IMG/VR virus record: IMGVR_UViG_3300004151_000021
Location: 1 to 35,789 of that record
Length of the DNA: 35,789 bases
From: a virus
Strand: one strand, 5' to 3'
The position numbers and the translations under genes were made by a program. Under the pieces are notes generated by a model. The model ran no database searches. It saw nothing but the letters and a program-made list of their open reading frames with translations, and was not told the DNA's origin. Of the stretch, positions 3,550-22,578 are shown one piece after another. Numbering within the stretch: the stretch's first letter is position 1; every line of letters begins with the position of its first letter.

Positions 3550-4169
3550 GCGCCGAGCTCCTTTCTTGCTAAGGCGATTGCGAGGTTGAGGCGGATCATG
3601 GCGGCGTCGCTTCCGCCCGCGTCGCTGTGCGCTCCTTTGGCTTTCTGGCGATAGCGATGCTCAGCTAGGGCGAGAAGGTCGCTTTTCTCACAACTATCTG
3701 GAAATGGCCCAAGCTCAACGCGCCAATCGATTGGTTTCTCATTCGTTGCGTTTTCAGGTGCAGGCAATGCTGTAAATCCGGCAAAGGCGCGTTCGATCAT
3801 TTGTGCGCCGCCATGACGATCAAGGCCGCGTAAATGTTCAATGGCAAGTGAAAGAGAGCGCAGATTTTGCGCGATATTGTCATAGCAATCACGCGCCATG
3901 GCCATTTGTTTGCCACGCAGCATGAAATATACGGCAATGCCGACATCACCATCGACGGTCTTTTTCGTGGCATAAAACTCGCCATCGTTTCGAAGGGGAA
4001 TGTTTGTCGAAAGAACGATGGTTTTTGCGCCGAGCAGACGCAGCTGTTCATAAAGATTCTCGCGTGAACTTTCGATTGTTGCGCGTTTGAGCTTATAATT
4101 ATAGGAGCGTTGCGCGCCTGGCGTGCGCGGCCAGCCATGCGGCCAGCAAAGGGGAAAAGCTTCAGCCAT
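3546..4169 (-). CDS. conserved phage protein with a degenerate J-domain-like C-terminus
   Basis: A 207-aa protein. The N-terminal 140 residues (PLCWPHGWPRTP, then LLGAKTIVLSTNIPLR, then GIAVYFMLRGK) belong to a family I know from alphaproteobacterial phages and plasmids but without a known activity. The C-terminal 45 residues look like helices II-III of a DnaJ J domain (AEHRYRQKAKGAHSDAGGSD), but the HPD motif needed to stimulate Hsp70 reads HSD. It may therefore bind without stimulating DnaK. The start overlaps the upstream gene by 8 nt; the end overlaps the next start as ATGA. Confidence 0.78.
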   Translation of the reverse strand: MAEAFPLCWPHGWPRTPGAQRSYNYKLKRATIESSRENLYEQLRLLGAKTIVLSTNIPLRNDGEFYATKKTVDGDVGIAVYFMLRGKQMAMARDCYDNIAQNLRSLSLAIEHLRGLDRHGGAQMIERAFAGFTALPAPENATNEKPIDWRVELGPFPDSCEKSDLLALAEHRYRQKAKGAHSDAGGSDAAMIRLNLAIALARKELGA

Positions 4170-4392
4170 TATTGGTCACCATTCGTCCGGCCTCAACTTG
4201 CCTGTCATCATTCATGATGGCTGTGAGCATTGATGCGGCGACAACTGAGAAGTTTGATCCGTTATGTGCGGCGATATCGTCGATATAGCCGACGACATCA
4301 AGGTCGAGTGTGATGGCGCGGCGCATGGTTGGCTTTTTCATCGCTTCGCGATGTGCGCGTGCTTCTTTGACGCGTGAGGAATATACTCTCAT
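4162..4392 (-). CDS. small possible ribbon-helix-helix protein
   Basis: A 76-aa basic protein. The segment RRAITLDLDVVGYIDDIAAH followed by a helical stretch looks like the strand-helix-helix of ribbon-helix-helix DNA-binding proteins, though the match is loose. A regulatory role in the left operon is only a guess. AAAGGA lies 6 nt before the ATG at 4392, and the gene is locked into the operon by an ATGA overlap upstream and an 8-nt overlap downstream. Confidence 0.65.
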   Translation of the reverse strand: MRVYSSRVKEARAHREAMKKPTMRRAITLDLDVVGYIDDIAAHNGSNFSVVAASMLTAIMNDDRQVEAGRMVTNNG

Positions 4393-4664
4393 TTTGGATC
4401 CTTTCTTTTCTCAACAGACCATTGCGCGGCAGCAAGGCGGAGGCAGTGCTCGCAAATCTTTGCACCATTGTTTGTGAAGATGAGCGTTTGTGGTCTTTCG
4501 CCTGCCTTTGGCGCAACCCATGATTTGCCGCAAAAATCGCAATGCGCACCGGCGTGGAGAATGACGTTATTAATCGCCTCCCAATGCCGCCCAATTTTAA
4601 ACCCAACAAACAAGCAAAATACTTGCGTGATCATGATGAGCATTATGAGTTCTACCGTCGTCAT
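4389..4664 (-). CDS. membrane-anchored C4 zinc-finger protein
   Basis: A 91-aa protein with one N-terminal membrane helix (about residues 4-24) followed by a four-cysteine zinc-finger-like module, CDFC near residue 42 and CEHC near residue 71, similar in spacing to ClpX-type zinc-binding domains. The soluble part would probably face the cytoplasm. AAAGGATAGG precedes the ATG at 4664. It sits directly downstream of the ParB-like gene. Function is unknown; it may recruit a nucleic acid or protein partner to the membrane. Confidence 0.72.
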   Translation of the reverse strand: MTTVELIMLIMITQVFCLFVGFKIGRHWEAINNVILHAGAHCDFCGKSWVAPKAGERPQTLIFTNNGAKICEHCLRLAAAQWSVEKRKDPK

Positions 4665-4677
4665 AGCTGCCTATCCT

Positions 4678-6297
4678 TTAGAGCTTTGGCCCTTTGTATC
4701 CGTCTGTTCGAAGCTCGACAGGGAGCCACCCTTTCTTTTGAATGATGGCTTTAAGTTTCTCAGCTATTTCCTTATTTGGTTTTTGGGCAAGCGCTTCTGC
4801 CGCTTTCTTATCGAAAAGATCGGCGGCGGCGCTGATCAACACGTTCTTTGGCGCGCGCAAAAGGAAAGATCCTGCATCGAAGTTTTGGACAAGCTCTTTT
4901 TGAAAGACTGATTGAGGAAGCGCTTTGCAGAGCGCAATATTGTCAGAAGATTCTAAAACACCTTTATGCCCTTGTGTGCGCATGTCGATTGTGCAAGCCG
5001 CAACTTCCGTGAGGATGCGCGTCACGTCAGCCGATGAGAGTTTTAGAATATCATCGAGCGACTGTTCCTGCCCATCAGCGTCCAACGTCATCATGCCGTG
5101 CACGTGGGCGTGCGCCGCGCTGTTGATTTTCAGGAAGGCTGACACAAGCACGGCCAGCGCGAGCTTACTATCGGCCCGGACGGCTTCTGCGGCCGCGAGG
5201 GTCAGCGTTTCAGAAAGATCGGCGTTAAGGGACATCGAAAGGCTGCTTGCTTTTTCGTTTTCGTCAGCTTTCTTTTTTGTCGCCTCTTTTTGCTTTTTAC
5301 CGCTTGGTTTCAGAACGCCATATTCGATCTTAAACATACCGTTGCTGTCGATCCCGACGATGCATCCAGACCTTTCTTTATCAGCCATGGCTGCGTTCTT
5401 TTTGGGTTGCTTAATGCGGGCCCACTGCCATTTTGCGCCTTGCGGGACATTTGTTTCATTTTCGGCCCAGCCCCATCCATTTGCGACAAGCTCGTCGCAT
5501 TTTTCTTTGATCTTCTCCGCCGTCATTTTCTCAAGAAGAGCAAGGTCAGCAACGAAAAGAGTATCGTTAAACAAATCCGTGATGATCGTGCCGCCTGCTT
5601 CTTTGTAGGCATCGGTTCCAACAAACAACAGGCTAGCATTAACGTTATGCTGCTCGCCGACGATCGCGCGTTTGATATTCCAATCTTGAAGGTGGCCTGA
5701 TTTCTTGAGCCTTTTAAAAAGTTTTTCCTGCTCAACATGATCGGTGACAAGCGTGAAAGCTTGCGCTTCATCCGCATCAATCTTGTCCTCACGCCATGCC
5801 TGTCTGATCTCTGGCGCAAGCTTTCCAAGCGCGAGCGCTTGTTTGACCGTACGTTCATCCACCGCATAGCGCGCGGCGATTTCTGCCGGGCTTGCGCCAT
5901 CGGAGAAAACGGCGGCAAACGCATCAAACCGATCAACAGGATGAAGGGGAAGGTGGTCTGTGTTTTCTGTTAATGAAAGGCGCAGGGCCTCAGTTGGGCT
6001 TAGCCCATCGCAGATAATGACCGGAACAGGATAATCTTCTGTCACGGCTTTATTTGCGAGGAGGAGGTGAAGGGCGGCCAAGCGCCGGTTGCCAGCGACA
6101 ATATAAAGACGCGTCCCATCAGTGGGATCAGGAATTGCAAAGAGAGACTGAATAAGGCCTTCTTCTTTGATCGATGCGGCAAGCTGCGCAAGCTCTTCAT
6201 CTGATTTTATTGTGCGGCAATTTATATTTGCGCCCGGATAGTCATTGCCGAAGTGCAGGCGAGACAGCGGTTCGAACATAATCGATTGGTTCATCAT
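4678..6297 (-). CDS. ParB/RepB/Spo0J-like protein
   Basis: A 539-aa protein. An N-terminal ParB/Srx domain includes LAASIKEEGL (39-49) and the nucleotide-binding GNRR at 69-72. A linker carrying LTENTDHLPLHPVDRFDAF-type residues (109-127) and an HTH (about 134-160, SPAEIAARYAVDERTV) follow. Such proteins bind DNA and often CTP. The long C-terminal part (about 200-539) is not a classical ParB dimer domain. There is no ParA partner in the window and the element is integrated, so partition is unlikely; a role in recombination or regulation is more plausible. Start at 6297 or the next codon at 6294. The 102 bp upstream (6298-6399) hold no gene. Confidence 0.85.
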   Translation of the reverse strand: MMNQSIMFEPLSRLHFGNDYPGANINCRTIKSDEELAQLAASIKEEGLIQSLFAIPDPTDGTRLYIVAGNRRLAALHLLLANKAVTEDYPVPVIICDGLSPTEALRLSLTENTDHLPLHPVDRFDAFAAVFSDGASPAEIAARYAVDERTVKQALALGKLAPEIRQAWREDKIDADEAQAFTLVTDHVEQEKLFKRLKKSGHLQDWNIKRAIVGEQHNVNASLLFVGTDAYKEAGGTIITDLFNDTLFVADLALLEKMTAEKIKEKCDELVANGWGWAENETNVPQGAKWQWARIKQPKKNAAMADKERSGCIVGIDSNGMFKIEYGVLKPSGKKQKEATKKKADENEKASSLSMSLNADLSETLTLAAAEAVRADSKLALAVLVSAFLKINSAAHAHVHGMMTLDADGQEQSLDDILKLSSADVTRILTEVAACTIDMRTQGHKGVLESSDNIALCKALPQSVFQKELVQNFDAGSFLLRAPKNVLISAAADLFDKKAAEALAQKPNKEIAEKLKAIIQKKGWLPVELRTDGYKGPKL

Positions 6298-6399
6298 GTC
6301 AGAATCTTTCGTGGTTAGAAGTTGGCGTCGGTTAGTTAAGGTTCCATAGGGTTTTTATCCAGCGCCAGTGTTGGCGAATGACGTGGAAAACGCGGCGTT

Positions 6400-6783
6400 T
6401 CATGCGGCACGCGGCGGATCTGGCGGCGCGGGCTGTTGCACGGAAAGCGATTGCATGATTTGGTCGGCGATAACCCGACCGCATTGCTGAAAACAATCGA
6501 TGTCGGCGGCAAGATCGTTTTCATTGATCAAGGCTAAGGTCACGGCGACCTGATTAATTTGCGTCAGCGCGGCGATCAGCATGCCGCAGGCGTTGAGCGT
6601 ATAGGACGCGTTCGAGATTTGGGCCGGTTCATTGTACCGATTGATCCGTTCCACAGCGGCCAGCGCCGCGTTGAGGTCGCGCTTGGGCTCAACAATCTTG
6701 GCGCGCATCACATCGCACATAAGCATGACGTTTTTCTTTGGGGCATCGAAGGGCTTGGGCCGAAACGGCGTGACGTTTTCCAT
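6400..6783 (-). CDS. phage protein of unknown function
   Basis: A 127-aa protein with no recognised domain. Residues about 38-115 look helical with no clear membrane segment, and the C-terminus is proline-rich (QPAPPDPPRAA). AAAGGATAACG precedes the ATG at 6783 at a good distance. It lies 12 nt after the upstream gene in the left early operon. The ribosome site and packing support a real gene; function unknown. Confidence 0.65.
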   Translation of the reverse strand: MENVTPFRPKPFDAPKKNVMLMCDVMRAKIVEPKRDLNAALAAVERINRYNEPAQISNASYTLNACGMLIAALTQINQVAVTLALINENDLAADIDCFQQCGRVIADQIMQSLSVQQPAPPDPPRAA

Positions 6784-6795
6784 ATCGTTATCCTT

Positions 6796-7290
6796 TCAGA
6801 TCAGTTTGCCTTGCTCGGGTGGGCGTTCGTCATTCATTTGGACGACGAAGTCATCGAGAATGCGCGCGCGGACGTCTTCGCCTTTGATGAAGCTTTCCAA
6901 AAAGGCGGCCAGCTCAAGCCGGAGCAGTGCCCCACAGGCTGGCGATAGGCGAGGGCCCGAAGAACGTGCCGTCGTGATGAAGCTTTGCCACGCCTTGCCG
7001 GCCACAATGGTCGTGGTGAGCGAAAGATTGAAATGATCGACGGCGCGTAGGCGCAGGTCGGCAGATTTGATGAGGGAAAGGAAAAAGACGCTGATATGCG
7101 CCACACAAAGCCGCAGGCTTGGCTCTCGACCAGAGGCGGCATAGCCTTTGCGCATGTCAACATAGTTGAGCCAAGAGGCATCAGCATCGGCAAGGCGCTC
7201 GGCTAAGCTCCGGCCATGGCGAATAGTTTGCGCGGCCTGCTCGGCGTGATCGTATTGTGTAGCGAGATTATAAGCGGCGACGTGTGTCAT
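6796..7290 (-). CDS. phage protein of unknown function
   Basis: A 164-aa mostly helical protein with no recognised domain or transmembrane anchor. I choose the ATG at 7290 (MTHVAAYN) because GAGG lies 6 nt upstream. An alternative ATG at 7302 overlaps the previous stop as ATGA and would add four residues (MRIP). It belongs to the leftward early operon between two other unknown genes. Confidence 0.65.
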   Translation of the reverse strand: MTHVAAYNLATQYDHAEQAAQTIRHGRSLAERLADADASWLNYVDMRKGYAASGREPSLRLCVAHISVFFLSLIKSADLRLRAVDHFNLSLTTTIVAGKAWQSFITTARSSGPRLSPACGALLRLELAAFLESFIKGEDVRARILDDFVVQMNDERPPEQGKLI

Positions 7291-7298
7291 GGGAATCC

Positions 7299-7553
7299 TC
7301 ATCTATCTGCATCGTTCTGCTCGATCTGGGCGTAGCCAAGAGCGATGGTGAAAAACTTGTCGATTTGCCATTGCGGGAATCCGGCTTTGTTCAAGATGTC
7401 CTGCGTGGCCGGTCGCCTACTGCGTAGCTCGGCCACAAGAATGTCGGTCATGCGCGAAACGATGTCCCACCGCTCTTTTTCGGAAAGGAGACGGTGCGGT
7501 GTGGCTGGGCCGGATGGCCCGGCGCGGTCTTCAATGTTGTGTGATGGCATCAT
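7299..7553 (-). CDS. small phage protein of unknown function
   Basis: An 84-aa soluble protein without a recognised domain. The frame can be extended to a TTG at 7568, but the ATG pair at 7553/7550 has AAGGA 7 nt upstream and is preferred. It follows the 52-aa membrane peptide gene and ends as an overlap with the next reading frame. Confidence 0.62.
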   Translation of the reverse strand: MMPSHNIEDRAGPSGPATPHRLLSEKERWDIVSRMTDILVAELRSRRPATQDILNKAGFPQWQIDKFFTIALGYAQIEQNDADR

Positions 7554-7568
7554 GACGCAATCCTTCAA

Positions 7569-7727
7569 TCAGTGGTTCATGAGGTATGAAAGCTTGCCGA
7601 TATACTCGATTGACCAGACGCTAAGGTGTGCTAGGCCAAGGGCTGCCATAACCACGAAAGGAATTGCGGCGAAAGGGAGGGGGCTCTCGCCGTTGTTGTT
7701 AAAGTTGTGTGGTTGGTGATTTTTCAT
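7569..7727 (-). CDS. 52-aa single-span membrane peptide
   Basis: A short gene starting MKNHQPHNFNNNG and ending SYLMNH, with one hydrophobic helix at about residues 17-40. GGAGG lies 4 nt before the ATG at 7727, the best ribosome site in this part of the operon. It is the first gene of the leftward operon, directly downstream of the operator-covered promoter at 7751-7779, so it would be among the first proteins made after derepression. Function unknown; position resembles early phage host-takeover or exclusion peptides, which is speculation. Confidence 0.68.
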   Translation of the reverse strand: MKNHQPHNFNNNGESPLPFAAIPFVVMAALGLAHLSVWSIEYIGKLSYLMNH

Positions 7728-7750
7728 GAACCCTCCGTCTGAGAGTTCAG

Positions 7751-7779
7751 TGAATAACGCAAATGCGTTAGCTAGTCAA
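7751..7779 (-). promoter_or_regulatory. left early promoter (pL-like)
   Basis: On the minus strand TTGACT (7774-7779, five of six to consensus) is 17 bp from TATTCA (7751-7756, weak). Transcription would begin about 15 nt upstream of the SD of the 52-aa gene. Both elements are overlapped by the 16-bp operators described at 7755 and 7778, so repressor binding would block it. Confidence 0.5.
7755..7770. promoter_or_regulatory. operator oL copy 1 (TAACGCAAATGCGTTA)
   Basis: A 16-bp inverted repeat, perfect apart from its two centre bases, lying in the spacer and -10 of the left promoter. It differs by one base from the perfect palindrome at 10937-10952, which links this promoter to the repressor/Cro region. 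Confidence 0.75.
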
Positions 7780-7793
7780 ACGAAAATGCGTTA
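7778..7793. promoter_or_regulatory. operator oL copy 2 (AAACGAAAATGCGTTA)
   Basis: Second copy, 23 bp from copy 1 centre to centre, with one conserved half (TGCGTTA) and one diverged half (AAACGA). It overlaps the -35 of the left promoter. A perfect TATAAT at 7803-7808 on the plus strand could serve the 7929 gene and would also fall under this operator, although no good -35 is visible. Confidence 0.65.
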
Positions 7794-7928
7794 TTTTTTT
7801 TATATAATCCTAACCACATTGTATTATTAATGTTTTTGTCTATTTTGGTAAAAAAAGAACTTGTGCCTATCCGGCAACAAAATAGGTGGCTAAGGTTCTT
7901 TTTGAAAATTGAACAAATGGAGGAAACA

Positions 7929-8180
7929 ATGATCGAAGTGTTTATCTCTTGGTATATCGTTTTATGCATCGGAACTTTGATCGGTTGGTACAAGGATACA
8001 ACGTTTTGGTCTTTTATGATGTGCTTGCTCTTTGGGCCTCTAGGCCTGCTAATTGTTATTTGCGCATCGGTTGATCTTTCAAAATGTCCCCATTGTTGCA
8101 AGAGAGTCAATGCAGAAGCCTCGATCTGCCCTTATTGTCGCAGCGTTTTGAAAACAGAAAAGCAATCATTAGAAAAATGA
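7929..8180 (+). CDS. membrane protein with C-terminal zinc ribbon
   Basis: An 83-aa protein with two hydrophobic helices (about 5-19 and 27-47) and a C-terminal zinc ribbon, CPHC at 53-56 and CPYC at 67-70. GGAGG 5 nt before the ATG at 7929 fixes the start; the longer open frame has no ribosome site. It is read rightward, against the early left operon, and is followed 43 bp later by another membrane/zinc-ribbon gene. These look like accessory genes carried by the prophage and possibly expressed in the lysogen. Function unknown. Confidence 0.72.
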   Translation: MIEVFISWYIVLCIGTLIGWYKDTTFWSFMMCLLFGPLGLLIVICASVDLSKCPHCCKRVNAEASICPYCRSVLKTEKQSLEK

Positions 8181-8223
8181 TTTATGTGAATCGTTTTGGG
8201 TTGGTTATAGGTTAGGAGGGGGT

Positions 8224-8667
8224 ATGGCGCTTATCACATGCAAGGATTGCCAAAAGGAATTCAGCACGGACGCTAAAAGCTGCCCACATTGCGGAGCGAA
8301 GAAGCCTTATGGCGTTCAGAAAACAATCATTGATGTGCTTTCCATTTTCTTTGTGTCATGGGTCTTTTTTTCATACCTAGCCTCGCAAAACGGTTCGAAG
8401 GCCGATTTATGCTCAGATAACAAGCAAGCTTACGAAGTTGTTTCTTCCTTCGCTAAGGACGGGAACAGCAATTTTGTGATGTCTGATATGGCTGAGGCGA
8501 AGTTTGAGCATCTCAGTGGTTGTATGATCCGCGTTACTTCATACGGGATGAAAAATGGTGAGCGTGACGATTTTTCCTTGATCGTTTCGCCGTGGACTCC
8601 GGAAGGTCAGACGAAGCAAATCTTTCGCATAAATCTCACTGAGACATTGAAGGGCGTAGAGGAATAA
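8224..8667 (+). CDS. N-terminal zinc-ribbon, single-span membrane protein
   Basis: A 147-aa protein. An N-terminal zinc ribbon (CKDC at 6-9 and CPHCG at 20-24) is followed by a membrane helix (about 34-52) and a C-terminal domain of about 90 residues that should lie outside the cytoplasm, with a cysteine pair at about 60 and 99 that could form a disulfide. AGGAGGGGGT precedes the ATG. It is the second gene of a rightward pair and ends 3 nt from the convergent acetyltransferase gene. I do not recognise the C-terminal domain. Confidence 0.78.
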   Translation: MALITCKDCQKEFSTDAKSCPHCGAKKPYGVQKTIIDVLSIFFVSWVFFSYLASQNGSKADLCSDNKQAYEVVSSFAKDGNSNFVMSDMAEAKFEHLSGCMIRVTSYGMKNGERDDFSLIVSPWTPEGQTKQIFRINLTETLKGVEE

Positions 8668-8670
8668 CCC

Positions 8671-9201
8671 TTATCCAGCGCGGCAAGAGGCACAGGACAT
8701 GGCCGCCATAAGCGGTCTTTCCAAAATGACAATAGGCGCTTCGATCCCATCTGCAAAAATCGCTTTTGTTTGACCGGACACAACGGCTCCATATTTGCAC
8801 TGCGCCTCAAGCCATCTGTTGTGGTCGGCGCGGATTGTCAAGATCGCCTTATCGCAGCCGTGTTCCGCCGCCCAAAGATCAAGCATCGAAAAAATAGTTT
8901 GCACAATGGCTGAGTGACGATAGGCTGGGCAAACGTAGCCGGCGATATATTTTGCCGTTTTTTCTTCTATTTTCTTAACCGTGACCGTTCCTGCGATATT
9001 ATTTTCTGTGAACGCACCAATTGTTGCATGTGTGCATGTTTCGGAACAAGCGGTACGCCATTCCTCATGCGTGCGTGAAAGCTCTTTCTGCGGATCTGTT
9101 GTGAAAAAGCGGCGATCGTCGCCCGTCAAAGCTTCCGTTCTTATTTTACGGTAAGCCTCTGCGTCGTTTGCTGTCAAAATGCGATAGGTGAAAGGTTTCA
9201 T
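8671..9201 (-). CDS. GNAT-family N-acetyltransferase-like protein
   Basis: A 176-aa protein with a GNAT-like order: N-terminal YRILTANDAEAYRKIRTEAL, a central strand IAGTVTVKKI, then YVCPAYRHSAIVQTIFSM where the acetyl-CoA loop (usually Q/RxxGxG/A) should lie, and a helix-strand end. The acetyl-CoA loop is degenerate because the glycines are missing, so activity is uncertain. Its start overlaps the stop of the HTH-regulator gene by one base (TAATG), so the two form a translationally coupled pair. Substrate unknown. A GNAT toxin with a regulator partner is a possibility, not an established fact. Confidence 0.7.
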   Translation of the reverse strand: MKPFTYRILTANDAEAYRKIRTEALTGDDRRFFTTDPQKELSRTHEEWRTACSETCTHATIGAFTENNIAGTVTVKKIEEKTAKYIAGYVCPAYRHSAIVQTIFSMLDLWAAEHGCDKAILTIRADHNRWLEAQCKYGAVVSGQTKAIFADGIEAPIVILERPLMAAMSCASCRAG

Positions 9202-9848
9202 TAAACAACCTCAGCTTTTTCCCACGCTGCATCGAATGCGTTTTTATACGCGATGGCAAAGGGGCCTGATTTGTGCAGAACGACGTATGGCGGCGTTTTG
9301 TGATCGAATGAGATAAGCGCCAAGTTATCGCCGAAAGCAAAGAATGAAACCTGCGGCATGTTGTGTTGTTTGGTTTGTCGCCGGATCACGGCCCATGTTT
9401 GGCTGAAATTTCCTTCAGCGGCAAGAATGCGGCCAGTGACTTTGCCAGAGCCGACAAATGCAAGCATTTTTGAGCGATAGCCTTCGATGTTTTTAATCGA
9501 ACGTTGGAAAGCCCCCTCATCGACAAGAGAGACAATGACTTCACCACCAAAACTTTCAAGATAGAAATAAACGAAATTAAGAAACTCTTGAAATCTATCG
9601 CGTCCCTCAAAAACTTCCATCCCAATTGGCAGGCGGCGCACGCCATCATTGTCAATGAACTCGATCCCGATGTTTCGGAAGGCAGATATGATCTTGATGA
9701 GCGTTTCTTTCTTGGGCGAATTTTTCTCTGTTTCGATGTAGCGGAGGGTTGCCGGGTTTAACCCGGTAACCCGCGCCAAATCTGTGCGTTCCCATCCGGC
9801 CAACGCGCGCGCCGCTTGAATCTGTTTTCCGCTCGGTGATGCACTCAT
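9201..9848 (-). CDS. XRE-family regulator with a C-terminal sensor-like domain
   Basis: A 215-aa protein. Residues 5-60 form an XRE helix-turn-helix (GKQIQAARALAGWERTDLAR, then NPATLRYIE), and residues 62-75 (IGIEFIDNDGVRRLP) are a linker typical of alphaproteobacterial regulators. The C-terminal 130 residues (FLNFVYFYLESFGGE, GYRSKMLAFVG, FFAFGDNLALISF) resemble a domain I have seen in other HTH proteins; it may have a phospholipase-D-like fold without its catalytic HKD, but this is uncertain. It is coupled to the GNAT gene and likely regulates its own promoter. It is distinct from the phage repressor at 10445. Confidence 0.82.
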   Translation of the reverse strand: MSASPSGKQIQAARALAGWERTDLARVTGLNPATLRYIETEKNSPKKETLIKIISAFRNIGIEFIDNDGVRRLPIGMEVFEGRDRFQEFLNFVYFYLESFGGEVIVSLVDEGAFQRSIKNIEGYRSKMLAFVGSGKVTGRILAAEGNFSQTWAVIRRQTKQHNMPQVSFFAFGDNLALISFDHKTPPYVVLHKSGPFAIAYKNAFDAAWEKAEVV

Positions 9849-9880
9849 CTTGACCCCAACTTATTTTTTCGCTTTTAGGA

Positions 9881-9950
9881 TACCGATAATAGGCGTGAAA
9901 GCAAAAATAAAAAATGAAGAATAAGACGGGTTCTACCGATAGAAGCGGTA
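9881..9950. promoter_or_regulatory. candidate autoregulatory region of the HTH/GNAT pair
   Basis: TACCGATA occurs at 9881-9888 and again at 9934-9941; the second copy lies in the inverted repeat TTCTA-CCGA-TAGAA (9931-9944) and faces CGGTA at 9946-9950. A minus-strand -10 (TATTAT, 9886-9891) overlaps the first copy. The whole interval 9849-10155 (307 bp) has no convincing gene; on the plus strand TTGTTT (10078) and TATGCT (10101) are a weak promoter candidate for the gene at 10156. Confidence 0.4.
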
Positions 9951-10155
9951 ATTTCTACCTAAAAATGGCAGTGATCTGGCCTGTATATGGTTAAATGGTT
10001 TATCATTTCCTTCAATCTATGGTCTTTTGCAATATCTCAAAACGTAACTTACAATAGCCCAAAACATTAAAACAAGATTGTTTTCACGTTATAAGATTAC
10101 TATGCTGAGAAGGTTATTTGTCTGTCATTTTAAGCGGAAAATTATGGGGGAATTG

Positions 10156-10455
10156 ATGAAACAAGCTTTTGAGCTGACGATTGTTGCGGCAGAGAACGAT
10201 GATGGCGCTGAAATTTTGAGCGTGACGGCCCGCGCCTGTGATGGCGCTAGCCTTTTAGTAAACCGTTATCAGTATACGTCTATTCTAGCCTGTTGCACCT
10301 ATGTGGCCCATACGGCGCGCACCATGGACAGCATGGTAGAGGATCTATTCTGCTTGAGCTTTGACATCGATGCGAGCAATCAGTTACCCGCCAGCCGTTT
10401 TGAGGATGCCATGCAGTGGTTTTGCGATTTTGATATGAAAAAGTTTATTCAATAA
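10156..10455 (+). CDS. small acidic protein of unknown function next to the repressor
   Basis: A 99-aa acidic protein with no recognised domain, membrane segment or signal peptide. The ATG at 10156 has GGGGGA 4-5 nt upstream; an in-frame ATG at 10144 would add four residues. It converges on the repressor gene, and the two coding ends overlap by 11 nt. A gene tail-to-tail with the repressor could be expressed in the lysogen, so an immunity, antirepressor or cargo role is possible but unsupported by any motif. Confidence 0.62.
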   Translation: MKQAFELTIVAAENDDGAEILSVTARACDGASLLVNRYQYTSILACCTYVAHTARTMDSMVEDLFCLSFDIDASNQLPASRFEDAMQWFCDFDMKKFIQ

Positions 10456-10867
10456 GGCTGAGCATATATTTCTTGATCTGCGCTGTTGTGGTTGGCTCTG
10501 AATCTTCGGCAAAATCGTCCCAAAAATACTTGATGGCCTTTTCCATGAGCATTTGCTCTGATTCTTTAGATAGCTTTCTATCAAACTTTACTTCAACAAG
10601 CGCATTAAGGCATGCAGAAGATATTTTTGCCCCTTGGCTTGCAATTTTTTGTCCGACTTTTGGCCTTGATTCAGCGCCAGTTGAGAGCCAATCGATTGTC
10701 GTCTCAAGCGCTTTTGCGAGTGCGGCTAAATCTCTGAACGACGTTCCTTTTCTGTCTAGGAATGATTGTATCGTGCTTTGCCTCTTTCCCATGCGAGTAG
10801 CCAGCTGATTTGGGTTCAACCCAAGCTGGTTCATTTTAAAAACAACGCGTTCATACATAGTGTTCAT
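10445..10867 (-). CDS. phage repressor, XRE HTH, no peptidase domain
   Basis: A 140-aa repressor candidate. The N-terminal HTH (about 5-65) reads LGLNPNQLATRMGKRQSTIQ, with LAALAKALE after it, a classic lambda-repressor-like fold. The C-terminal half is helical and acidic and lacks the S24/LexA Ser-Lys peptidase seen in CI-type repressors, so RecA-driven self-cleavage is not expected. It faces a Cro-like gene across a 95-bp region holding two operators. Its promoter has -10 TATAGT only six bases before the ATG, so the mRNA is probably leaderless, like lambda cI from pRM. A second ATG at 10858 is possible. Confidence 0.85.
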   Translation of the reverse strand: MNTMYERVVFKMNQLGLNPNQLATRMGKRQSTIQSFLDRKGTSFRDLAALAKALETTIDWLSTGAESRPKVGQKIASQGAKISSACLNALVEVKFDRKLSKESEQMLMEKAIKYFWDDFAEDSEPTTTAQIKKYMLSLIE

Positions 10868-10873
10868 GGTGCA

Positions 10874-10902
10874 ACTATATGATAAAGCTAGGGTTTTGTC
10901 AT
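10874..10902 (-). promoter_or_regulatory. repressor promoter (pRM-like)
   Basis: Minus strand: ATGACA (10897-10902, five of six to TTGACA), 17-bp spacer, TATAGT (10874-10879, five of six to TATAAT). The ATG starts six bases after the -10, so transcription should begin at or next to it. Operator 10903-10918 abuts the -35 on the upstream side, the place from which a bound repressor could contact RNA polymerase. Confidence 0.6.
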
Positions 10903-10918
10903 AAACGAAATTGCGTTA
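10903..10918. promoter_or_regulatory. operator oR copy 1 (AAACGAAATTGCGTTA)
   Basis: One half is the conserved TTGCGTTA and the other is AAACGAA, the same diverged half as at 7778-7793. It touches the -35 of the repressor promoter and covers the likely -35 (TTGCGT, 10911-10916) of the rightward promoter. Confidence 0.68.
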
Positions 10919-10940
10919 CATCGCAGCTTTACAAGATAAC
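10911..10940 (+). promoter_or_regulatory. right early promoter (pR-like)
   Basis: TTGCGT (10911-10916) and GATAAC (10935-10940) are 18 bp apart; both are imperfect. Transcription would begin about 16 nt before the Cro-like ATG. Each element lies within one of the two operators, consistent with repression in the lysogen. Confidence 0.42.
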
Positions 10941-10952
10941 GCAATTGCGTTA
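10937..10952. promoter_or_regulatory. operator oR copy 2 (TAACGCAATTGCGTTA)
   Basis: A perfect 16-bp palindrome, the best copy of the four. It is 34 bp from copy 1 centre to centre and 10 bp before the Cro-like start codon, over the -10 and probable start site of the rightward promoter. Confidence 0.75.
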
Positions 10953-10962
10953 ATTAGGGTGC

Positions 10963-11238
10963 ATGAAGAATGCACTGATAAGAGCGATAGAGCTGAAGAA
11001 AACGCAAACTGCACTCGCTGAATCGATGAGTGAAGCTGCGAAAGCCTGTGGATGCTCGAAAAAATACAGGCAGTCCCATATTTCCACATGGCTTCAACGT
11101 GGAAAGATACCAGCAGATGCCTGCCTTCATATCGAAGTAGCCCTTAGTGGCGAAGTGACACGGCAAATGCTTCGCCCTGACATCTTTGGGGTCCCAAAAA
11201 TTGAAATCAAAAGCAGACATTGTAACGGGCCTCCCTGA
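10963..11238 (+). CDS. Cro/YdaS-like HTH protein
   Basis: A 91-aa DNA-binding protein. Residues about 5-60 resemble the YdaS/Cro group: KNALIRAIELKKTQTALAES, then a recognition-helix region QSHISTWLQRGKIPADACLH, followed by the characteristic end of the domain (RQMLRPDIFG). It is divergent to the repressor and first in the right early operon, so it likely acts like Cro, competing for the same operators and favouring lytic growth. The region between the HTH helices is a few residues longer than usual. The SD is weak (AGGGT). An 83-bp gap follows. Confidence 0.85.
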   Translation: MKNALIRAIELKKTQTALAESMSEAAKACGCSKKYRQSHISTWLQRGKIPADACLHIEVALSGEVTRQMLRPDIFGVPKIEIKSRHCNGPP

Positions 11239-11321
11239 CCACCCTTTGATCATCACGCTCTGCGCGATGTGAAGAAAGAGAATTATGATCCCATTTTAAT
11301 CATAGAATTGTAGAGGCCCAA

Positions 11322-11780
11322 ATGAACCAGCCCAAACTTCACTCTGTTACAAGCGATGATATCAAAGAAGTTGTCGCGCGAAATTTAAGCCCACGTGTTG
11401 GCTTGCATAAAAAATGGAGCGTTGAATGTTTTGCGGAGCTAACGGGGCAGGAAGTTCAGACCGTTTATGGACAAATCAGCGGGACAGGGCTGGCACCGGC
11501 AGCCAAGCTTATGCGTATGGGCGATATTGTGGGGCCAACTTTCTTAAACGAAGTTCTCGCTCTTATCGGCATGGGTGGGGCACATAGGATTGATGGGGAG
11601 GGTTCTGATTGCCCAAGCCGCATTATTTCAGAAGCGGCGGATTTGATTAAGTCTATTTCTGAAGCACATGCGGATGGAACCCGTGATCATCGTGAGACGG
11701 CGATTATTCTCAAGGAGGCGAAAGAGCTATACGCGTGGCTCGGCGGATATATTCACGCCCTTTCACAGGATATTTCCTGA
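11322..11780 (+). CDS. CII-like phage regulatory protein
   Basis: A 152-aa protein with an N-terminal DNA-binding-like part (VVARNLSPRVGLHKKWSVECFAEL, then QTVYGQISG; residues about 12-55) and a helical C-terminal part. Alphaproteobacterial prophages often carry such a protein in the CII position, after Cro and before the replication genes, and I infer a regulatory role from that. Start at 11322, with only a weak AGAGGC site 5 nt upstream. Its stop overlaps the next start as TGATG. Confidence 0.65.
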   Translation: MNQPKLHSVTSDDIKEVVARNLSPRVGLHKKWSVECFAELTGQEVQTVYGQISGTGLAPAAKLMRMGDIVGPTFLNEVLALIGMGGAHRIDGEGSDCPSRIISEAADLIKSISEAHADGTRDHRETAIILKEAKELYAWLGGYIHALSQDIS

Positions 11781-22257: not shown

Positions 22258-22578
22258 ATGGCGGCGGCGTTCTCGAGCATGATTGACCGGTTGTTCGCTA
22301 ATCGCGATCTTGCCGAGAACGCCGTTTACAAAAGAAAGAGCGACGGTGTTTTAACGCCATTGCGTGTACTTCGCGTGCAGGAAGATAAATTTGGCTCCTT
22401 TGGCGAGAGTAAAAGCCTTTCATCGTCAACTGTTTTTGAAATTCGATCTTCTGACGTTTCTGATCCGAAGATCGGCGATGGCATTTCGATTAACGAGGTT
22501 TTGTACACGATACAGGCCGATCCGCAACGCAAGGCTGACGGACTTGTTTGGTCGTTAAATGTTCACGACGGGGGGTAA
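22258..22578 (+). CDS. head-tail connector/joining protein
   Basis: A 106-aa protein in the position of lambda gpFI/gpFII. It starts MAAAFSSMIDRLFANRDLAE and has a beta-rich core (PLRVLRVQED, GISINEVLYTIQADPQRKADGL) like small gpFII-type joining proteins. It would form part of the ring between head and tail. The frame ends 4 nt before the next start. The call rests on order and fold impression. Confidence 0.75.
   Translation: MAAAFSSMIDRLFANRDLAENAVYKRKSDGVLTPLRVLRVQEDKFGSFGESKSLSSSTVFEIRSSDVSDPKIGDGISINEVLYTIQADPQRKADGLVWSLNVHDGG

Follow-up and report, generated by a model that had tools for sequence, protein, structure and literature searches.

The question raised by this locus is whether four similar 16-bp palindromes, lying at two distant places of a phage record, are the operators of a lambda-style switch. 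The window analysed here is the whole record IMGVR_UViG_3300004151_000021, 35,789 nt in length, and the first-pass annotation had proposed for it a switch in which a repressor encoded from 10445 and a Cro-like protein encoded from 10963 compete for the four sites. On its anatomy, the region is a genuine and well-formed double control region of the lambda type, in a reduced form. It is quite probable that it works as an immunity region on the lambda plan, in which the repressor and a YdaS-type Cro act on AACG-N6-CGTT palindromes at a left (OL) and a right (OR) operator region. The four sites are the following:

OL1, 7755-7770, TAACGCAAATGCGTTA: one mismatch to the motif; between the -35 and -10 elements of the putative promoter pL.
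OL2, 7778-7793, AAACGAAAATGCGTTA: three mismatches, half-diverged; upstream of pL, with a 2 bp overlap with its -35.
OR2, 10903-10918, AAACGAAATTGCGTTA: two mismatches, half-diverged; abuts the -35 of the putative promoter pRM.
OR1, 10937-10952, TAACGCAATTGCGTTA: no mismatch, perfectly palindromic; between the -35 and -10 elements of the putative promoter pR.

All four sites lie where the first-pass annotation had placed them (starting at 7755, 7778, 10903 and 10937), and their presence is far above chance. With up to three mismatches to the 16-bp motif, the window contains five matches, against 0.24 expected, a number reached in none of 100 shuffles; the fifth (22352-22367, three mismatches), which is the one extra copy in the whole window, is weak and falls inside the open reading frame (ORF) 22258-22578. 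The pair pattern AACGNANNTNCGTT-N4..34-AACGNANNTNCGTT occurs twice (7756-7792 and 10904-10951), and never in 100 shuffles. Scored with a matrix derived from them, the four sites reach 28.0, 26.5, 25.1 and 23.6, followed by the match at 22352 with 16.5 and then by 11.9, while leave-one-out matrices rank them 1, 3, 3 and 4 among 35,774 positions. As had been claimed, start-to-start spacing is 23 bp in the OL pair and 34 bp in the OR pair, and an AAACGA half is common to both poorer sites (OL2 and OR2), on the same side and each time beside the -35 of a putative leftward promoter. The midpoints of OL and OR are ~3.15 kb apart. The matrix scan reveals two strong sites in each region, not three. 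Among the 15 best matrix matches, the sole further candidate near either array is a faint operator-like match at 7811-7826 (TAACCACATTGTATTA, score 6.3), 33 bp from OL2, which might be a decayed third OL site.

The sites lie among promoter-like hexamers, from which three putative promoters have been delimited:

Putative pL, 7751-7779, minus strand: TTGACT-17-TATTCA, 8/12 matches; below the threshold of the promoter scan.
Putative pRM, 10874-10902, minus strand: ATGACA-17-TATAGT, 10/12 matches; the best promoter match in the region.
Putative pR, 10928-10956, plus strand: TTTACA, with an uncertain -10; below the threshold of the promoter scan.

Each place holds one good and one half-diverged site at a leftward (pL) or divergent (pRM/pR) promoter region, as the annotation had described. 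OL1 and OR1 both begin 3 nt past a -35 with 5/6 matches (the AACG core begins 4 nt past it) and extend into the place of the -10, the chance of a 5/6 -35 at one fixed place being 0.0047. Four -10 options exist for pR: GTTAAT (spacer of 15), TTAATT (16), TAATTA (17) and AATTAG (18). The start of pRM is predicted at ~10867, at the ATG of the repressor, with the -10 ending 6 nt before this codon and the centre of OR2 at ~-43.5, so that the repressor message is predicted to be leaderless. At OL, a perfect TATAAT is found at 7803-7808, suitable for a possible rightward transcript toward 7931-8180; since OL2 covers the corresponding -35 place, divergent control may be exerted at OL as well.

Three proteins encoded around OR are relevant to this arrangement:

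Repressor, 10445-10867, minus strand: 140 aa, with a 434-type helix-turn-helix (HTH) and a Pfam HTH_3 match above the cut-off.
Cro-like protein, 10963-11238, plus strand: 91 aa, of the YdaS family (PF15943, 45.9 bits versus a cut-off of 30).
Possible CII-like protein, 11322-11780, plus strand: weak phrog_101 match (E 0.0026).

The identities suggested for the first two have been borne out: the repressor matches 434 repressor structures (best E 2.1e-6), and the Cro-like protein is related to the solved Cro 3bd1 (E 1.3e-9). For the third one, the Pfam CP76 match is below the cut-off, and NCBIfam yields no CII match. The term lambda-style fits the divergent repressor/Cro layout and the operator pairs at pL and pRM/pR, but it does not extend to the repressor itself, which shows no match to an S24/LexA-type C-terminal domain in Pfam or NCBIfam and, judged from its sequence, falls outside the lambda CI family if that domain is taken as its defining feature.

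For this region, we infer active promoters, DNA binding by both proteins, cooperativity, activation and competition, along the following lines. The 140-aa repressor would bind the AACG-N6-CGTT palindromes and, when sitting on OL1 and OR1, would occupy the promoter spacer and block pL and pR. On OR2, it would lie beside the -35 of pRM, from which its own gene would be transcribed, and may activate or tune this promoter. The YdaS-type Cro would bind the same or overlapping sites and favour the lytic state, and the spacings of 23 and 34 bp, about one helical turn apart, would suit side-by-side cooperative binding. Alternatively, the sites could serve the repressor alone, at pL, pR and pRM, with the YdaS-type Cro reading other sequences and acting elsewhere. 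This option is unlikely, although AACG sites in other phages lie near repressors of widely differing sequence and, in the YdaS system of CP-933P, the exact binding sequences of both proteins are reportedly unresolved and two kinds of repeats overlap (PMC8630535). What speaks against it is that, compared by eye, the recognition helices of the repressor and Cro are similar (QSTIQSF and QSHISTW, respectively).

The same operator class also occurs in other phages. IMG/VR was searched with a pattern of two AACGNANNTNCGTT sites (the AACG-N6-CGTT class) at any spacing from 18 to 48, and a scrambled motif, ACGANANNTNTCGT, was used as a control in the same search and in the same promoter register test. 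The AACG pattern was found at 37 loci, which form 15 clusters by flank similarity; in 10 of these, at least one member has no ORF of at least 100 aa over the pair (non-coding clusters). Pairs elsewhere are mostly spaced by whole helical turns: 21-22, 32-34 and 42-43 bp predominate in the 10 non-coding clusters (39 and 46 being the exceptions), while the coding clusters add spacings of 21, 33, 35, 40, 45 and 48 bp. A Rayleigh test with a period of 10.5, which treats different spacings within one cluster as independent, gives ~1.5e-4 for the 16 non-coding spacings, versus 0.16 for the five of the control. Furthermore, at 16 of the 37 loci, belonging to four of the 15 clusters (L027/L043, the Geobacillus virus E2 group, L039 and L057), the AACG core follows a -35 with 5-6 matches at a distance of 3-4 nt, the promoter spacer being 17 bp. 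In the case of L027, the sequence TTGACA-AAC-TAACGCATATGCGTTA has the same architecture as pL in the window.

These comparisons also bear on a very different explanation, in which the palindromes are parS-like sites of the ParB-like protein encoded at 4678-6297 and have a partition or gene-silencing role. This protein matches ParB_N and HTH_ParB above the cut-offs, and parS sites are 16-bp palindromes, a form shared by the sites of the window. Nevertheless, early control regions are where all four sites are found, the better member of each pair occupies the same place relative to a -35, and in several clusters similar sites adjoin XRE-type repressors, which makes a parS role very improbable.

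A scan for the exact class over the full length of the 37 other records found 31 of them to hold exactly one pair and nothing more. Three sites in one array are present in L054, L056 and L061, a third site lies ~190 bp off in L036, and L047 combines an array of three with two stray sites. L030, a viral contig, is peculiar in having eight copies of (G/A)AACGCATATGCGTT(C/T) over 3.8 kb (3934-7744), with the closest pair in a 304-aa reading frame. A second distant pair appears in none of the 37 records, in a scan of exact sites that would miss degenerate ones and in which many records are fragments. Compared with these records, two pairs in one record is a distinctive feature of the window. The pair pattern is likewise absent from the 397 genomes taken as Acetobacteraceae. 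The exact 16-mer occurs at 11 IMG/VR loci, one site each, which is roughly estimated to be near chance level and has not been used as evidence; by eye, seven of these loci have a common flank and, like L010, a promoter-like place, and L007, L013 and L016 are in ORFs.

The helices of neighbouring regulators offer some indication of who reads the sites. At residues 28-34 (434 numbering), the window repressor has QSTIQSF, and the HTH proteins encoded within 1 kb of AACG pairs have QSVIGSM (L028 and L046), ATTLQSM (L051), QSTFSTW (L027, whose pair is TAACGCATATGCGTTA/CAACGCAATTGCGTTA) and EAMVAKW (L033). The combination of Ser or Thr at position 29 with Ser at 33 is found in three of the five HTH proteins near pairs versus one of 22 others, in a set from which the profile missed most Geobacillus-type repressors. 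This pattern speaks for the 10445 repressor as the protein that reads the sites. The nearest HTH relatives of the repressor mostly differ in their recognition residues, and an exact AACG-N6-CGTT was found at none of 15 loci, comprising these relatives (L018, L021-L023, L026 and seven named phage records) together with L005, L006 and L071; L064 has one site with one substitution. L026, whose LSTLMSY helix fits the pattern without an AACG site, counts against a simple code. A phmmer comparison of window proteins with the ORFs around the pairs yielded nothing, and with filters off only matches with E 0.025 or worse. A LexA-type operator was also considered and discarded, as the alphaproteobacterial pattern is matched once in the window versus 0.95 expected.

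A broader proposal, put forward tentatively and with more doubt than confidence, is that AACG-N6-CGTT would be a widespread operator class on which unrelated repressor families may have converged because its 14-bp core, placed 3-4 nt past the -35, can be accommodated in a 17-bp spacer. It would be read by a helix with Ser or Thr at position 29 and at position 33, and the array would have been doubled in the window into a minimal lambda-type switch.

Several observations weigh against the proposed switch and the operator class on which it draws. The -10 elements of pL and pR are weak and neither promoter passed the promoter scan, and promoter-like sites are not enriched in the region 7560-11400 (9 found versus 6.1 expected). 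The counts of the AACG motif in IMG/VR are only moderately higher than those of the control (37 loci and 15 clusters versus 18 and 6), and the control passes the register test at a similar rate per site (9/76 versus 16/156 site-strands). All nine control passes, however, occur in one cluster, 2 nt past the -35 and with totals of 8-9/12 versus 9-11 for AACG; what counts in this test is the agreement across four clusters, not the rate. Thirteen of the 18 control loci (L072-L079, L082, L084 and L087-L089) are related contigs with paired ACGA-N6-TCGT at 23, 24 or 46 bp, and this cluster is apparently another real phage operator array. The link with the helix rests on few groups: two of the three fitting proteins belong to one cluster, L027 has Thr at position 33 and L033 does not fit. 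In addition, QSxIS is also present in the solved Cro 3bd1, and in the window Cro it may be a family feature.

A second HTH protein, encoded at 9201-9848 within the immunity region and matching HTH_3, is a further candidate reader and might be the true repressor of the sites. It adjoins neither array, and the pattern found beside several AACG pairs is missing from its helix (NPATLRYI, by eye), so this alternative is highly unlikely. Finally, no close relative of the repressor or of Cro was found in IMG/VR, species genomes or named phages, and hence OL/OR conservation could not be compared. In IMG/VR, the repressor has a single HTH match at 35% and Cro a single match at 46%, and the scan of species genomes gives one 35% HTH match for the repressor. 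Of a second sample of 190 genomes, four have HTH matches to the repressor at 33-34%, and of the 397 genomes taken as Acetobacteraceae, searched with a threshold of E 1e-4, one has an HTH-only match; these numbers indicate rarity but supply no relative for a comparison. Among named phages, the 13 records for the repressor and 10 for Cro are all below 60% identity, with one spanning the whole repressor at 26%.

With respect to known systems, the window shares with lambda the gene order, the divergent repressor and Cro, and the distant OL and OR. Its operators lie between the divergent genes, and the second operator region is at a putative leftward promoter beyond the repressor, toward the integrase. 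An OR2-like site is located at the -35 of pRM in lambda, and likewise OR2 here. In contrast, the window has two sites per region versus three, its repressor lacks the S24 match and the operator sequences are unrelated. This difference from the three operators of lambda, noted by the annotation, stands, but it is not unique. The number of operators varies in lambdoid phages: according to PMC8065619, Stx phage 933W has two at OL (three are present at its OR), and H-19B has four at OR. The Geobacillus virus E2 type resembles the window in having AACG-N6-CGTT operators in the promoter spacer and helically phased pairs, while it differs in its single array of two or three sites per record (L047 having also two stray sites) and in the LexA/S24-type C-terminal part of its repressor. 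In titles and abstract openings, with partial coverage of the literature on Acetobacter prophage or Geobacillus GVE2 repressor operators, no such sites were found described.

The closest described system found appears to be the CP-933P immunity region from E. coli O157:H7 (PaaR2/YdaS/YdaT), in a comparison based on layout, operator sites and the Cro family. According to its description (PMC8630535), PaaR2 is an octameric CI analogue, YdaS acts as Cro and YdaT as CII, with overlapping footprints. Both regions hold a YdaS-type Cro divergent from a short CI analogue, both have palindromes covering PRM and PR (in CP-933P, the left half is diverged in two of four inverted repeats), and both have a PL with related operators of its own, the promoters of the window being putative. 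The repressor message is leaderless there and predicted to be so here, the transcripts of lambda cI and PaaR2 starting on the repressor ATG (same source). Unlike the two sites per region of the window, CP-933P is described in that source with four inverted repeats, three operators at OR and three at OL, a different operator sequence (GTTTAGTAA half) as well as a toxin-antitoxin pair located behind its repressor.

Looping, together with CI/Cro competition, was a reasonable suggestion; the loop is possible but unsupported. As an addition to the switch and not an alternative to it, a repressor loop between OL and OR could strengthen repression as in lambda, where the S24-type C-terminal part of CI is the part involved in DNA looping. 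Since the window repressor has no S24-type match, looping here would need another oligomerisation route. The AlphaFold single-sequence model of the repressor is of too low confidence (mean pLDDT 45.8) to be used on this point. The two arrays ~3.15 kb apart and the lack of a second distant pair in the other records speak for a loop, as does the formation of octamers by PaaR2 (PMC8630535). On the other hand, PMC5880393 states for lambda that the stability and dynamics of the loop are optimised by having three operators in each of two sets, compared with two in each. On balance, a loop is conceivable and somewhat less likely than its absence.

The window is a prophage record on the lambda plan, with the gene order integrase, leftward operon, OL, accessory genes, repressor, OR, Cro, weak CII-like match, primase, DnaB, terminase, portal, head and tail. 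The integrase is encoded at 11-1264 on the minus strand, beside positions 1-60, which match the 3' part of a tRNA-Val gene (95%) in the record of Acetobacter phage phiAX1. Because this match adjoins the integrase, positions 1-60 are probably an attachment site, that is, the left prophage junction (attL), and the host is probably Acetobacteraceae-like, an acetic-acid-type bacterium. No repeat of the left end was found at the right end, beyond the tail genes, so the record is probably incomplete. In the leftward operon, 2857-3549 matches an Imm-5-like putative immunity protein (PF21805). The same operon of this integrating phage encodes the 539-aa ParB-like protein; no ParA turned up among the window proteins scanned. 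The interval from OL to OR, where lambda has rexAB, contains five ORFs, on both strands (7931-10455):

7931-8180, plus strand: small protein, weak zinc-ribbon match below Pfam cut-offs; start read from GGAGGAAACA ATG, the same ORF having been scanned as 7830-8180.
8224-8667, plus strand: small protein, weak zinc-ribbon match below Pfam cut-offs.
8671-9201, minus strand: GNAT protein.
9201-9848, minus strand: the second HTH protein (HTH_3), with a long C-terminal part of unassigned kind.
10156-10455, plus strand: ORF with no match.

With these data, the OL/OR plan of the lambda type reaches a phage, probably of an acetic-acid bacterium, whose repressor is short and whose Cro is of the YdaS type. 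Two operators per region is apparently a very small form of this plan, and it can serve as a compact natural test of what is gained by having three operators and a C-terminal domain of the lambda type. If the common operator class and its promoter register across unrelated phages prove true, they would amount to a testable, sequence-based rule for interpreting phage switches.

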